From: Candidatus Gastranaerophilales bacterium
GTDB taxonomy: Bacteria > Cyanobacteriota > Vampirovibrionia > Gastranaerophilales > Gastranaerophilaceae
Assembly (NCBI GenBank): GCA_944325585.1
Contig: CALVAS010000003.1
Span: forward strand, 1 to 49,627
DNA: 49,627 bases
Direction: 5' to 3'
The position numbers were made by a program, and so were the translations under genes. Positions 35,862 to 49,627 of this stretch are shown here, in pieces. The notes beneath the pieces were generated by a model. The model saw only the letters and a list, made by a program, of their open reading frames with translations, had not been told where the DNA came from and searched no databases. Numbering within the stretch: position 1 is the stretch's first letter; every line of letters starts with the position of its first letter.

Positions 35862-36702
35862 ATGATGAAAAAGCGCGCTATGACTGGATTTACGGGGGGG
35901 GGGGGCAAGTAAGAAACTTCTCCTTAAACGGACAAAGCAAAAAGATTTAAAAACGGGATTTACATTATCTGAAGTGTTAATAACGCTAGGCATAATCGGC
36001 ATAGTAGCAGCAATGACTCTTCCGGCATTGATAGCTAATCATCGCAAGCAGGTAACGTTAACAAAAGTCAAGCAGACTTACAATATACTTAGTAATGCCT
36101 TAGAGCGTGCAAAAGTGGATTACGATACCGAGGTAAACAACTGGTATGTGCCGACTGAAGGTTCTAATCTGGAAAAGAGTATGTACTTTGCCGAAACTTA
36201 TATGATTCCGTATTTACAGGTTACACATTACTGTAAAGATAAATATGTTGCACCTTATTGCAATTTGAAACCTAAAAGATTAGATGACTCAGTGTCCGGT
36301 GAAATTATGGGGCCTGCCGGTGACGGTTATGGAACAGCTTTTGTACTTAATAACGGCACGGTAGTAAATGTTCGAGTCGGGGCAATGACGGGGGCAGAGA
36401 CAGATCAAGGAGGGATAAGCCGAATTTGGATAATGTTTGATATAGATGGCCCGCAAGGATTTAATAAACTTGGATATGATACATTTATGATAGAACTTGG
36501 CGGTGCTGAAGGTTATAAGAAAAATAATAATGCAGACAGAAACAAGTTTCTGCCTTATGGATATGATGCGTCAAAAAATTGTGATTACTACGTTTCGGAT
36601 ATGAATCATGCCTGCAATCCGAATGTTACATACAGTGGTTCATTTTGTCTTGCCTATATTGTTTGTAACGGCTGGGATTTCGGCGACAAATACCCGTGGT
36701 AG
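35862..36702 (+). CDS. Prepilin-like protein A; start separated from body by a G12 tract (out of frame as sequenced)
   Basis: A CGAGGAG site precedes ATGATG at 35862. That frame reads MMKKRAMTGFTGGGGK and stops at 35910. The prepilin frame is open from the G-tract onward (ASKKLLLKRTKQKDLKTG, then FTLSEVLITLGIIGIVAAMT) to 36702, but it has an upstream TGA and no ATG, GTG or TTG start before the cleavage motif. One G fewer (11) would fuse the frames. The Gly/Phe cleavage site and Glu+5 are canonical. The mature protein has about 250 residues, several cysteines, and ends ...CNGWDFGDKYPW. It is likely a minor pilin or pseudopilin-type surface protein. The GTG at 35974 is an unlikely start, since it would delete the motif. 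Confidence 0.8.
35894..35905 (+). repeat. G12 homopolymer in the prepilin A leader
   Basis: Twelve consecutive G lie between TTTAC and CAAGTAAG. Length 11, 14 or 8 would put the ATG in frame with the prepilin; the observed 12 does not. Such tracts mutate by slipped-strand mispairing. Confidence 0.9.
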
Positions 36703-39240: not shown

Positions 39241-40284
39241 ATGAAATCAATACAATATTATGGTCCGCAAAATATAAAATATGAAGATGTGATGGTTAAA
39301 CCGCCGGAAGATGGCGAAATTGTCGTCAAAATAATATCTGCGCTTACCTGCGGAACAGATGTGAAAACATACAGACGCGGACATCCGGTTTTGATTAAAA
39401 ATATTCCGTCGGGATTCGGGCATGAATTTGCAGGAATCGTTGATAAGGTCGGCCGTGGTGTTACAAAATTTAAATCCGGTGACAGAGTCGTTTGCGCCAA
39501 TTCGGCCCCTTGCGGAAATTGTTTTTATTGTCGCCGCGGTGAATATAATTTATGCGAAAATCTCGACCTGTTAAACGGAGCATATGCGCAGTATATTACA
39601 GTTCCGGCACGTATTGTTGAAAAAAACACTTTAATTTTGCCTGAAAATTTAAGTTTTGACAAAGCCGCATTCTGCGAACCGCTTGCAAATGTAGTTCATG
39701 GTGTTGAAAGAACCGGAATTAAAGAAGGCGATACGGTTGGTATTATCGGAATAGGTCCGATTGGACTTATGTTTGCGCGATTGGCAAAACTTAAAGGTGC
39801 AAGGGTTATTGCAGCAGGCAGAAACCCAATAAAATTAAAACTCGCCGATGAATTTGCGCATGCGGATGAAATTGTGGATTTGAAAAAATATCCGAATCCT
39901 GAAAAAATATTTATGAACTTTACGGAAGAAAATAAGGGATTGGATATTGCTGTTGAATGTGTCGGCTTACCTGAAATTTGGGAGCGTATTTTTTCATTTG
40001 TGCGTCCCGGGGGTACAGTCCACTTTTTCGGCGGCTGCAAATCAGGTTCCACAGTGACGTTTGACACCACAAAAATGCATTACGGCGATATTCGTTTGAT
40101 GAGTGTTTTTCATCATACTCCGGAATATTTCAGAAAGGCTCTGGATTATATTGCATCAGGCGAAGTTGAAGTGGAAAAATTGATTACAGGCACACTGCCT
40201 CTTAAGGATGTTGAATTCGCAATGAAAGAGCATATTGAGGGAAGAGCAGTGAAATTTTTAATAAAACCATGGGAAAATGAATAA
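39241..40284 (+). CDS. Zinc-dependent medium-chain alcohol dehydrogenase (copy 2)
   Basis: A GAAGGAAG site precedes the ATG; the product is 347 residues. It has the catalytic motif TCGTDVKTYR, GHEFAG, the structural zinc loop PCGNCFYCRRGEYNLC and the Rossmann motif VGIIGIGPIGLMFARLAK. The similarity to sorbitol and sugar-phosphate dehydrogenases is general. Pairing with copy 1 suggests a two-step polyol or sugar conversion. Prepilin B begins only 16 bp downstream, so it may be co-transcribed. Confidence 0.9.
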   Translation: MKSIQYYGPQNIKYEDVMVKPPEDGEIVVKIISALTCGTDVKTYRRGHPVLIKNIPSGFGHEFAGIVDKVGRGVTKFKSGDRVVCANSAPCGNCFYCRRGEYNLCENLDLLNGAYAQYITVPARIVEKNTLILPENLSFDKAAFCEPLANVVHGVERTGIKEGDTVGIIGIGPIGLMFARLAKLKGARVIAAGRNPIKLKLADEFAHADEIVDLKKYPNPEKIFMNFTEENKGLDIAVECVGLPEIWERIFSFVRPGGTVHFFGGCKSGSTVTFDTTKMHYGDIRLMSVFHHTPEYFRKALDYIASGEVEVEKLITGTLPLKDVEFAMKEHIEGRAVKFLIKPWENE

Positions 40285-40300: not shown

Positions 40301-41144
40301 ATGAAAAGGCAGACTATGACTGAATTTACGGGGGGGGGGGGCAAGTAAGAACCGTCTCCTTAAACGGGAAAAAAAAAAAGATTTAAAAACGGGATTTACA
40401 TTATCTGAAGTGTTGATAACGCTCGGCATAATCGGCATAGTAGCAGCAATGACCCTTCCTGCATTGATAGCTAATCATCGCAAGCAGGTAACATTAACAA
40501 AAGTCAAGCAGACTTACAATGTATTAAGCAATGCATTAGAGCGAGCAAAAGTAGATTATGATACCGAGGTAAACAACTGGTATGTGCCGACTGAAGGTAC
40601 CCAGCTTGAAAAGAGCAAATTTTTTGCAGAAACCTACATGCTTCCATATTTGCAGGTGTCGACATATTGTAAAGAAAGGTCAACAAATCCCTATTGCCTG
40701 ATAACATATACCCATTTGAAAGGTGAGGAATATGAAGTTCTAGGGCCCTCAAACAGCGGAAGCGGTGTATCTTTTGTTTTAAATAGCGGAGTTGTGGTTG
40801 GTGTAACTGTTGGAGCAATTTCTACAACAAATCCGGGGGATCCTTATGACGAAACCATAAGCCGGATAAAGATTACCTTTGATATAGACGGTCCGCAAGG
40901 ATATAACAAAAAGGGTTATGATGTATTTATGATAGAGCTCGGCGGGGCTGATGGCCCAAGAATAGGTAATAGAGCCGACAGAAATAAATTTCTGCCATAT
41001 CTTTATGACGCCTCCAAAGACTGTGATTACTATGTATCAGATAACAATCATGCATGTAATAACAATGCAACATACGGAGGAAGTATGTGCCTTGCCTATA
41101 TTGTTTGCAACGGCTGGGATTTCGGCGACAAATACCCGTGGTAA
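40301..41144 (+). CDS. Prepilin-like protein B; start separated from body by a G12 tract (out of frame as sequenced)
   Basis: AAAGGAGG precedes ATG 40301, whose frame reads MKRQTMTEFTGGGGK and stops at 40346. The prepilin frame opens at the tract (ASKNRLLKREKKKDLKTG then FTLSEVLITLGIIGIVAAMT) and runs to 41144 with no usable start of its own. Deleting one G restores a single frame. The body is a close paralogue of prepilin A: near-identical for the first ~65 mature residues and again over the last ~45, divergent in the middle. An A11 run at 40369-40379 is a second possible slippage site. Confidence 0.8.
40330..40341 (+). repeat. G12 homopolymer in the prepilin B leader
   Basis: Twelve G lie between TTTAC and CAAGTAAG, the same length and flanks as at 35894. 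Confidence 0.9.
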
Positions 41145-45825: not shown

Positions 45826-47008
45826 TAGAAATAATTATGAACGTGAAAGACAGCGGAGCAATCGTCAGCCTATACAAAGCGTTATAATATCTTCACCTGA
45901 CAGAACTCTGTTGGTTGTTGTGACTTTTCTTGTCATAATCGGTTTTATGGCGATTTTTTCTGCCTCTGCGCCAAAATGTCTTGATGAAGGCGTAAATCCG
46001 GCACAGTTTTTGATAAAACAGGTTATCTGTTTCATCGTCGGGTTTATCGGGTTGAAATTCTTTACAAATTACGATTACAAAAAACTCGCGCAGTGGAATA
46101 CAATTTTTGCGGCGGCTATTATAATTTCACTTTTGCTTGTTGATTTTACACCTTTAGGCGTTACGGTAAACGGAGCAAAACGATGGATAAACCTCTTCGG
46201 ATTCCAGCTTCAGCCTTCAGAATTTGCAAAACCTGCGGTTGTTCTGCTTCTGGCATCAGCCTTTAAAGATAACGGGCATCTTTTTGTTGAAACCAAGTGG
46301 ATAAAATATTTCATTCCAATTATTGTAATGCTTGCCTTTATTTTTATGCAGCCGAACTTAAGTATGGTTATTCTGCTTTTGTCTGTGTCTGTTGTAATGT
46401 TTTTATGCGGCGGCGGTTCATTAAAATTATTCTTTAGCTTTCTTGCGGCCGGTGTCACAACAGTTGTGCTTGCATTAACAACAATTATCAAACCTTATCA
46501 GCTTCAAAGGCTTCAGATTTGGCGCCACCCTGAAACCGATCCGCAAGGCGCGGGATATAATATAATACAGTCTTTAATCGCTTTTGCCTCCGGAGGATTT
46601 AACGGCGTCGGCTACGGTGGTTCAATTCAAAAACTTTCATATCTGCCCGAATGCCATACGGACTTTATTTTTGCAATTATTGCGGAAGAACTCGGATTTG
46701 TCGGATGTGTTCTTATAATAGGATTATTCTGGACATTTGTACATAGAGGATTTATTGTTGCTTCCAGATGTCCTGATATGTACGGAAGACTTCTCGCTGT
46801 CGGCATAACTTTTTCAATCGGATTTCAGGCGTTTTTGAATATAAGCGTTGCCAGCTCGTTTCTGCCGACAACAGGTGTTCCGCTTCCGTTCATAAGTTAC
46901 GGCGGATCTTCATTGATTGTTTCTCTCTGGATGGTCGGAATTTTGTTAAACATTTCCAAAAAGCGCATTAAAAAAATAAGGAATCAGGAAAATGACCCAA
47001 TCCGATAA
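45806..47008 (+). CDS. ftsW: Cell-division lipid II polymerase FtsW (SEDS family)
   Basis: The ATG at 45806 (GGAAAGG upstream, inside the murD end) gives 400 residues. A charged 30-residue cytosolic N-terminus precedes about ten membrane helices. SEDS signatures include NGAKRWINLFGFQLQPSEFAKP, the RLQIWRHPETDPQGAGYNIIQSL block, GLGYG-like NGVGYGGSIQKLSYLPECHTDFIFAIIAEELG, and the final PLPFISYGGSS. Position between murD and murG favours FtsW over RodA. Confidence 0.93.
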   Translation: MSYRDYDRNNYERERQRSNRQPIQSVIISSPDRTLLVVVTFLVIIGFMAIFSASAPKCLDEGVNPAQFLIKQVICFIVGFIGLKFFTNYDYKKLAQWNTIFAAAIIISLLLVDFTPLGVTVNGAKRWINLFGFQLQPSEFAKPAVVLLLASAFKDNGHLFVETKWIKYFIPIIVMLAFIFMQPNLSMVILLLSVSVVMFLCGGGSLKLFFSFLAAGVTTVVLALTTIIKPYQLQRLQIWRHPETDPQGAGYNIIQSLIAFASGGFNGVGYGGSIQKLSYLPECHTDFIFAIIAEELGFVGCVLIIGLFWTFVHRGFIVASRCPDMYGRLLAVGITFSIGFQAFLNISVASSFLPTTGVPLPFISYGGSSLIVSLWMVGILLNISKKRIKKIRNQENDPIR

Positions 47009-48137
47009 AAAATATACGTATTTTATAACAGGCGGAGGCACAGGCGGACATATTTATCCTGCCGTTGCCGTTGCAGATGAACTTATATCCCGCGGACAGA
47101 ATGTATTTTACGTGGGTAATCCCAAAAATCTCGAATTTGATATTGTAAGTCAAAAAGGATTTGAGTTTTTGCCGGTTTATGTTCACGGAATGCCGCGAAA
47201 AGCAGGTTTCACTCTGATAAAGTGGCTCTTTGAACTGGGTTTGGCTGTGTTAGGAAGCATTGTGTATATTTTGAAATACAAACCCGACGCGGTATTCGGA
47301 ACCGGCGGTTATGTATCTGCGCCTGCCCTGATGGCTGCAAAATTGTGTAAGGTTCCTTTTATGCTTCACGACTGTGATGCAAAACCGGGGCTTGTTACAC
47401 GAAAACTTTCAAAGTGGGCTGATTGTGTTTCTCTGGCTTTTGACTGCGCAAAACAGGAGATTGCAAATGACTGTTGTATGATTAACGGAAATCCTATCAG
47501 AAAAACGTTTAAAACGCTTTCAAAGCAGGAAGCAAGAGAAAAATTGGGGTTGCAGGATAAAACAACTCTTTGTATTATGGGCGGTTCACAGGGGGCGCGC
47601 TCAATTAATGACGGTGCTGTTGAAATCCTTAAGAAATTCTCTCAAAATTCAGATTTGCAAATTATTTTTCAAACAGGAAAAAAGAATTTTGAACGCGTGA
47701 TTGAGCAGCTTATAAAGATTTATCCGGAATATGAAGCCGATAAAAATCTTGTTGTAAAACCGTATTTTGATGATATGGTAACTGTTTTAAAAGCCTCAGA
47801 TATTGCAATTTCCAGATCCGGTTCGCTGAGTCTTTCAGAGCTGTGTGCATCCGGTATTGCATCAATTCTTGTACCATATCCTTATGCTGCAGCTGACCAT
47901 CAGCGCAAAAATGCAAAATATATGGAAGAAAAAGGTGCTGCGCTTTATCTTGAGGACGAAGACGTTAATGAAGATACTTTAACTGATTTGATATCTTATT
48001 TGCTGAATAATCCGCAAAAATTAAACGAATTGCAAAACTCTGCGCTTATGCTTGCCAAATATGACAGTGTTGATTTGATTTGCGATAAATTAGTTGAAAT
48101 TGTAAAAAGTTGCGAAGTTCGCAAACGTAAAGTATAA
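46992..48137 (+). CDS. murG: UDP-GlcNAc:lipid I N-acetylglucosaminyltransferase
   Basis: The 381-residue GT-B glycosyltransferase has the glycine-rich GGGTGGHIYPAVAVADEL motif, TGGYVSAPALMAAK, GGSQGARSIND, and the acceptor-side SRSGSLSLSELCA and VPYPYAAADHQ.KNA blocks. It converts lipid I to lipid II. It overlaps ftsW by 17 bp. In many genomes murC/murB follow; here a prepilin gene starts 21 bp after the stop. Confidence 0.96.
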   Translation: MTQSDKKYTYFITGGGTGGHIYPAVAVADELISRGQNVFYVGNPKNLEFDIVSQKGFEFLPVYVHGMPRKAGFTLIKWLFELGLAVLGSIVYILKYKPDAVFGTGGYVSAPALMAAKLCKVPFMLHDCDAKPGLVTRKLSKWADCVSLAFDCAKQEIANDCCMINGNPIRKTFKTLSKQEAREKLGLQDKTTLCIMGGSQGARSINDGAVEILKKFSQNSDLQIIFQTGKKNFERVIEQLIKIYPEYEADKNLVVKPYFDDMVTVLKASDIAISRSGSLSLSELCASGIASILVPYPYAAADHQRKNAKYMEEKGAALYLEDEDVNEDTLTDLISYLLNNPQKLNELQNSALMLAKYDSVDLICDKLVEIVKSCEVRKRKV

Positions 48138-48158
48138 TAATAAAGAGGAGGATAAAGT

Positions 48159-48981
48159 ATGAAAAAGTGCACTATGACTGAATTTGCGGGGGGGGGGGGC
48201 AAGTAAGAAACGTCTCCTTAAACAGGAAAAACAAAAAGATTTACAAACAGGATTTACATTATCAGAAGTTCTTATAACGCTCGGCATAATCGGAATCGTG
48301 GCGGCAATGACACTACCTGCGTTAATTAATAAATATCAGGAAAGAGTACTGGTTGTCTCTGCCAAGAGGTCTTATGCAATAGTAACAAATGCTTTAATGC
48401 GGTGGAATGCGGATAATGATATGACAGGTGATTATCTATCATTTTTTTCTTCTTACGGAAGTGATGTTGAGCGGCTTCGGGTATTAACTAAATATATGAA
48501 TACGGTACAATTTTGTACGCAGGATAAAGTGGAACCTTGCGGCGGTAAATATGAAATAAAGCAGTATAAAAAATTAAATGACGGACACGGGAATACTGCT
48601 CAATTTGATTTAATAAACTGGTGGCGTGCTGTTCTTGTAGACGGTACTTTTATAACGCTTCAATCCGAAGTTGAAAACGGCAGTTGTATTCATAAATATT
48701 GGTCTTATGAAACTGATGCGGACGGCAATTATATCCCTGATGATTCCAGTCCTAACGGATATAAAGGAAAAGAAACTACCTCATACACCTGCGGCGTAAT
48801 TGTTATTGATACAAACGGTTTAAAATCTCCGAATCAGGTGGGACGCGATGTTTTCGGGATTGCCTTTTCGCAGAAAGGTCCGGAGGAAAGCCAGAATTCA
48901 ACACGCGGAAACATAAATTATGTACTTCAAAATGACAAATTAATTGATACAGAGGATTATACTATCGGAAAGTTTGAGTAA
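48159..48981 (+). CDS. Prepilin-like protein C; start separated from body by a G12 tract (out of frame as sequenced)
   Basis: AAGAGGAGG precedes ATG 48159. Its frame reads MKKCTMTEFAGGGGK and stops at 48204. The prepilin frame continues through the tract (ASKKRLLKQEKQKDLQTG then FTLSEVLITLGIIGIVAAMT) to 48981. A TTG at 48184, inside the tract's flank, is a formal start in this frame but has no ribosome site, and in copies A and B that codon is TTA. The leader and helix match copies A and B. From residue ~25 of the mature protein the sequence is unrelated (NKYQERVLVVSAKRSYAIV...), with four or more cysteines. It is joined to the mur operon by a 21-bp gap. Confidence 0.8.
48188..48199 (+). repeat. 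G12 homopolymer in the prepilin C leader
   Basis: Twelve G lie between TTTGC and CAAGTAAG. Length and right flank are identical to the tracts at 35894 and 40330. Confidence 0.9.
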
Positions 48982-49030: not shown

Positions 49031-49627
49031 ATGAACAATAATTATAATGATGCAAAAGAGCTTTTGACTTCAAAAGGAAAATTTTATATAAATTTGGGAC
49101 TTGAGCGGATTTCATCCGTTCTTGAATTACTCGGGAATCCGCAGGATAAACTAAAATATTTCCATGTCGCGGGAACAAACGGCAAGGGAAGTGTTTGTTC
49201 GATTCTTGCGGAGGTTTTAAAAGAGTACGGACTAAAAACAGGACTTTATACAAGCCCGCACCTTTTTAAATATACCGAACGTATTAAAATTAACGGCGAA
49301 GATATTTCAGATGAAGATTTTGCAAATCTTGTTTTTGAAATCTGTGAAATCGCAGATAAAAACAAGATTCATCTGACGGAATTTGAAATTCTGACTGCTG
49401 TTATGTTTAAATATTTTGCGGATAATAATGTTGATGTTGTTGTCCTTGAAACCGGTCTTGGCGGAAGATTTGATGCAACAAATGTTATAAAAAATAATCT
49501 TTGCGCTGTTATAACCCATATCGACCTTGATCATACTGAGCGTCTCGGCAGTACTAAAGATAAAATTGCTTTTGAAAAAGCCGGAATAATCAAGCCGAAT
49601 TGCCCTGTTGTTGTTTCGGAGGGGTAT
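49031..49627 (+). CDS. folC: Folylpolyglutamate synthase/dihydrofolate synthase, N-terminal part (3' truncated by window)
   Basis: The frame is open from ATG 49031 to the window end (199 codons). It carries the FolC signatures LGLERISSVLELLGNPQ, the ATP loop HVAGTNGKGSVCSIL (about 46-60), YTSPHLFKYTERI, and VVLETGLGGRFDATN followed by THIDLDH. The enzyme adds glutamates to folates. No clear Shine-Dalgarno or -10 sequence precedes the ATG. Together with folE2 this gives two folate genes in the window, not linked to each other. Confidence 0.95.
   Translation, partial: MNNNYNDAKELLTSKGKFYINLGLERISSVLELLGNPQDKLKYFHVAGTNGKGSVCSILAEVLKEYGLKTGLYTSPHLFKYTERIKINGEDISDEDFANLVFEICEIADKNKIHLTEFEILTAVMFKYFADNNVDVVVLETGLGGRFDATNVIKNNLCAVITHIDLDHTERLGSTKDKIAFEKAGIIKPNCPVVVSEGY

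Follow-up and report, generated by a model that had tools for sequence, protein, structure and literature searches.

The prepilin gene that directly follows murG in the DNA analysed here (the window, a stretch of 49,627 nucleotides from a Candidatus Gastranaerophilales bacterium), called locus C in the following, is probably one of many phase-variable prepilin genes in Gastranaerophilaceae, which would share a leader cassette and an OFF rest state maintained by selection. One architecture is shared by such genes throughout the genome, and locus C is therefore an acquired member of a genome-wide poly-G prepilin family and no special case.

The tract of locus C and its position behind murG

The start codon of locus C is the ATG at 48159 on the forward strand, on which all features described here are located, and the stop codon of murG (46992–48137; Pfam Glyco_transf_28 and Glyco_tran_28_C; 71–89% identical to MurG of congeners) lies 21 nt upstream. 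The G12 tract reported in the preliminary description, the third of its kind in the window, is exactly present at 48188–48199, and the gap of 21 nt was confirmed by the sequence. The start codon is preceded by the strong Shine-Dalgarno (SD) sequence GAGGAGGA (48145–48152). As assembled with G12, the frame opened by the ATG (48159–48206) encodes MKKCTMTEFAGGGGK and ends with TAA at 48204–48206. The prepilin frame (SKKRLLKQEKQKDLQTG/FTLSEV..., 48202–48981), which stays open through the leader peptide, across the processing site (48252/48253) and on through the body, is joined to the ATG only at G11 or G14, i.e., a homopolymer in the 5' coding part sets the frame by its length. The encoded protein matches the Pfam family N_methyl (PF07963) with 27.1 bits at a cut-off of 21.2 and carries the N-terminal methylation motif TG/FTLSE with a G/F processing site and Glu at +5; this places an N_methyl prepilin in a murG–folC unit and not in a sortase-dependent pilus cluster. 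Between tract and processing motif the prepilin frame of locus C contains no ATG, GTG or TTG and locus C thus depends on the leader start. A separate internal start was rejected, as none exists ahead of the motif, and the TTG at 48184 was dismissed as the real start, since it has no SD upstream and is absent from the two other tract genes of the window, loci A and B. Some loci, among them L066 and L094, have a prepilin with an ATG of its own. Behind the tract, locus C contains the anti-SD TCTCCTT (48213–48219; CTCC at +14), which pairs with the SD in the minimum-energy fold. This stem is present in a single-sequence RNA fold whose stability is no better than that of shuffled sequences (z -0.54), and an Rfam search returned no match at locus C.

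Downstream of the prepilin the 5' part of folC is encoded (49031–49627; Mur_ligase_M). The expectation that murC or murB should follow murG was not borne out, because in several congeners it is folC that directly follows: it adjoins murG in G003, G013, G009, G010, and G006 with a gap of ~1 to 42 nt and starts likewise close behind murG in G002. The spacer 3' of the locus C prepilin is similar to the murG–folC spacer of L112. In the congeners G012, G008, G007, and G001, the murG–folC slot contains an unrelated, tract-free prepilin. The slot is repeatedly occupied by prepilins (L179, L181, L182, L188, L187) with similar DNA behind the murG stop, which resembles an antisense helix-turn-helix fragment; the slot is possibly an insertion hotspot. 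The closest matches to the body of locus C come from other genera (57% identity in G055; 54–56% in G014, G073, and G065), whereas identity within its own genus reaches at most ~37%. The simplest reading of these sequence comparisons is that a body from outside was joined to a local leader near the processing site.

The short gap to murG and the neighbouring folC make a single murG–prepilin–folC transcript, and hence cotranscription of locus C with both genes, likely. Neither a promoter nor a terminator beyond chance was found in the murG–prepilin gap, and a clear promoter and terminator of its own, which would isolate the prepilin gene, was not detected. The proposal that the prepilin rides on the murG transcript is hence kept as an insertion into a murG–folC unit, but such a position is not unique to locus C, as locus B lies 16 nt behind the gene of a zinc-type alcohol dehydrogenase (39241–40284). 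Of 112 tract genes, 45, locus B included, lie no more than 120 nt downstream of a co-directional ORF, and the setting behind a co-directional gene is not unusual among them.

Poly-G prepilins in the window, the genome and the order

Locus A (35872–36702; G12 at 35894–35905) and locus B (40301–41144; G12 at 40330–40341) possess leaders as in locus C, and beyond these three G12 tracts no G/C run of at least nine exists in the window, in which nine-mer matches number 12 compared to 0.02 expected. The leaders of the three loci are 83–86% identical across ~190 bp while the body of locus C differs. Gene conversion, offered earlier as a reason for the likeness of the tracts, or common descent therefore accounts for it in part, namely for the leaders, but the body of C is closest to other genera.

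The genome to which the window belongs (1.76 Mb, 105 contigs), assigned to Candidatus Gastranaerophilales by a scan with MurG, contains 37 G/C runs of at least nine, with lengths of 10–14 and most of them at prepilin starts. Nearly all of them have one architecture, which consists of AAGGAGCT, ATG, 6–13 codons, G10–G14, CAACCCGTAA or a similar sequence, GCTCCT, a spacer and the prepilin. Prepilin-like places found with Pfam N_methyl number 52 in this genome, 70–96 in tract-rich relatives and 10 in the tract-free G005. Tracts of at least nine G/C occur in 13 of 14 congeneric genomes, and across the order 91 of 117 genomes have runs of at least ten, with a maximum of 176 per genome. Many tracts lie within ~100 nt of contig ends in G000 (C7, C17, C45, C59, C68, C71, C73, C89), which argues that prepilins with tracts disrupt the assembly and that their number is underestimated.

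The poly-C tracts of G011, considered as a possible new protein family, proved to belong to prepilins as well. Genes of the Acyl_transf_3 family carry the same leader type as the prepilins, which indicates that the leader travels; such poly-G leaders precede the acyltransferase-family genes L083 (G008), L085 and L098 (both G009), assembled in phases 0, 1, and 2. Leaders of G012 (e.g., L192, L193, L203, L226) have up to ~220 open codons from tract to prepilin, which are largely translated palindromic repeats of a CHSELDSESI-like type. Absent mismatch repair was rejected as the cause of the tracts, as MutL was found in tract-rich genomes. The genera g35 and g36 (G099, G103, G101) lack a MutL match and have few or no poly-G tracts, the reverse of the Campylobacter pattern.

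Phase bias, tract length and signals behind the tract

The phase of each tract was called by comparing the start with the best SD to the frame of the downstream prepilin. Within the genus of the window (four genomes, 115 tracts), one G above an in-frame length is the rule (92 tracts), compared with 11 tracts in frame and 12 in the third phase; as the loci are related and p-values overstate their independence, the chi-square p = 3e-25 denotes a strong bias rather than an exact probability. The common off-phase of the three window tracts, which had seemed odd for independent switching, is thus not a matter of chance. Their identical length is a local feature: G12 and the same off-phase hold for the window, but with lengths of G10 to G14 genome-wide it is the phase that is common. 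Tract length follows the in-frame length, with G12 in 63 of 71 loci that would be ON at 11 or 14, G13 in 14 of 29 loci with ON at 12, and G11 in 13 of 15 loci with ON at 10 or 13. A preferred length of 12 could not produce this shift; a mutational equilibrium at this length is rejected, and the suggested slippage mechanism requiring 12 Gs is not supported.

In another genus, represented by G022, 20 of 25 tracts have one G above an in-frame length, while in G055, again of another genus, 23 of 28 have one G below, in runs that are nearly all 10 and for which long-read undercalling is possible. The direction of the frame transition is hence conserved within the genus of the window and within G022 and opposite in G055. 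G061 was left out, because all 40 of its sampled runs are exactly 10 (loci L343–L372), a homopolymer cap that probably results from long-read polishing; any survey of poly-G in public genomes should include a check for such caps. Over the usable sample, 25 of 182 tracts are in frame (ON), which is below one third (p = 1.4e-9, read with the same reservation for related loci). Near-identical leaders that differ by 1 nt, one ON and one OFF, are found in L031 (G11) and L066 (G12) and in L251 and L263 (G007). L032 (G000, contig C2), in frame with G8, is a candidate for a switch that a shortened tract has fixed in the ON state; its relative L224 (G012) is out of frame with G11. L050 (G000) and L266 (G007) form a prepilin pair of 97% identity; both have G11, which puts them in the rare third phase, meet an in-frame stop at +7 and possibly represent a lineage with another resting phase.

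The resting phase is accompanied by signals behind the tract. In the genus of the window a 0-frame stop follows within 12 nt in 96% of phase-1 loci, compared to 36% in the background and 4% in the third phase. The corresponding values in G055 are 96% (own resting phase) and 9% (third phase). In G022 both the stop rule and the anti-SD rule are absent. Of the 89 loci in the window's genus that possess the sequence CTCC, 84 have it 14–16 nt past the tract. It is distributed over all three codon frames (35, 37, and 17), which marks it as a nucleotide signal and excludes a peptide constraint. A stem of at least six pairs complementary to the SD is found in 70% of loci versus 9% in the next 45 nt. 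The base beside the SD/anti-SD core covaries (C-G, A-T, G-T, T-G) and is paired in 110 of 123 loci versus a shuffled value of 83 (0 of 2000 shuffles). The relatedness of the loci weakens this covariation, but the change from GCTCCT to TCTCCTT recurs in G055, whose leader peptides are unrelated.

Tract genes are under purifying selection: the dN/dS of the prepilin bodies has a median of 0.20 (54 pairs), it is 0.205 where both copies are OFF (43 pairs) and 0.18 for the window's own pair, loci A and B. Spacers are open in the prepilin frame over up to 225 codons. Low dN/dS and open spacers together argue that tract genes do get expressed, at certain times or through one route or another.

A proposed heritable switch and its alternatives

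We propose that a transferable leader, composed of SD, ATG, 6–13 codons, G-run, out-of-frame stop, anti-SD and spacer, was fused to prepilin bodies, and that DNA slippage in the G-run would act as a heritable switch of this fusion. At G11 ribosomes would read through into the prepilin of locus C, whereas at G12 translation would end a few nucleotides past the tract and an SD/anti-SD hairpin could cover the start site. The copy at locus C would have been inserted between murG and folC and would probably be carried on their transcript. The usual resting state would be a clean OFF, a single G away from ON and maintained by selection, which would explain why the three window loci are alike; a predominance of OFF among the assembled states, however, is not what one would expect of a conventional two-way switch. 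For Campylobacter jejuni poly-G tracts, an insertion bias at G8–9 and a deletion bias at G10–11 are cited in PMC4085013, and with biases of this kind long runs would stop one above ON if ON were counterselected. As a full explanation this was rejected, since a simple simulation in which slippage was biased and ON counterselected gave ~50:50 between the two OFF phases and no single dominant phase. A clean stop ahead of the anti-SD may favour the resting phase over the third phase.

The main rival is programmed slippage, in which the genes would operate with one extra G: RNA polymerase or the ribosome would slip on the run at a set rate, part of the product from every copy would continue into the prepilin, and the rest would end at the stop. 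It accounts equally well for the conserved phase, kept across independent leader types and tract lengths of 10–15, and for purifying selection on genes that are OFF; the stop directly behind the tract and the equal rarity of ON and third-phase departures in the window's genus (11 and 12) agree with it. Its weak point is G055, where one G too few would demand opposite recoding within the same family, and near-identical paralogs 1 nt apart in length, ON copies among them, speak against it, as does the fact that a ribosomal shift would not need 10–13 Gs. We regard it as possible but rather unlikely. Its particular form, in which the one-G-off state is productive and dozens of prepilins per genome are made at a low set level via polymerase slippage, with stop and anti-SD hairpin setting the dose, we hold to be unlikely; if true, poly-G would be a genome-wide recoding signal instead of a heritable switch. 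Heritable slippage is favoured by the one-G differences in near-identical copies, by the ON copies and by a Bifidobacterium precedent.

That the tracts are truly in frame and miscounted by one in most assemblies appears improbable. Miscounts are real in this collection, as the uniform runs of G061 and the near-uniform ones of G055 illustrate, but the genus of the window has lengths of 10–15 with no cap, for which such an artefact is unlikely: its +1 state recurs across different assemblers (metaSPAdes, IDBA, and MEGAHIT, judged by contig names), ON and third-phase tracts stand side by side in the same assemblies, and the acyltransferase tracts assembled in all three phases. Moreover, stutter usually shortens homopolymer runs. 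Very improbable, too, is a history of common descent and gene conversion only, in which homogenised leader copies would carry a phase without functional meaning. It would suit loci A, B, and C with their shared ~190 bp and the differing body of C, but unrelated leader types in the same genomes (L055, L195, L273, L289 and others) have the same resting phase and the number of Gs moves with the in-frame length. Furthermore, G-runs slip far faster than point mutations build up, so that neutral copies should lose the memory of their phase.

No report linking Gastranaerophilales or Melainabacteria to phase variation of pilins by simple sequence repeats was found in the literature. In Neisseria, pilC is a poly-G switch, PilC being a pilus-associated adhesin and not a prepilin. 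As in the genes described here, the poly-G lies near the start of a pilus-related gene, and it acts as a translational ON/OFF switch of the kind proposed here; we know of no anti-SD leader in Neisseria. The Neisseria phasome comprises 115 genes (PMC5084427). In Bifidobacterium breve UCC2003, sortase-pilus genes carry G10–G12 near the 5' end, the population is mostly out of frame and -1+3n is ON (PMC9187656). This gut commensal shares with the present case a pilus gene, a usual length that is out of frame and a second ORF without an active start (PMC9187656), but it has sortase pili at one or two loci per genome; the present genes encode prepilins, occupy tens of loci and have both stop and anti-SD conserved behind the tract. 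For C. jejuni NCTC11168, PMC4965091 gives 29 poly-G loci; the many tracts per genome are alike, whereas the C. jejuni genes mostly encode surface-modifying enzymes and the present family has a shared leader cassette, up to 176 tracts per genome and a strong OFF-phase preference. Programmed transcriptional slippage and frameshifting (reviewed in PMC5009743) resemble the present case in that a slippery run with a stop behind it marks a conserved change of frame, and differ in that known bacterial cases mainly use A/T runs and in that the direction differs here between genera.

If the switch reading is right, the poly-G repertoire of gut Gastranaerophilales would be among the largest known, with up to 176 tracts in ~2 Mb, and portable leaders would stand ahead of many pilins, even within a cell-wall operon. 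The common resting phase would then allow to test whether contingency loci drift between phases or are retained in an OFF state that is preferred and lies a single step from ON.
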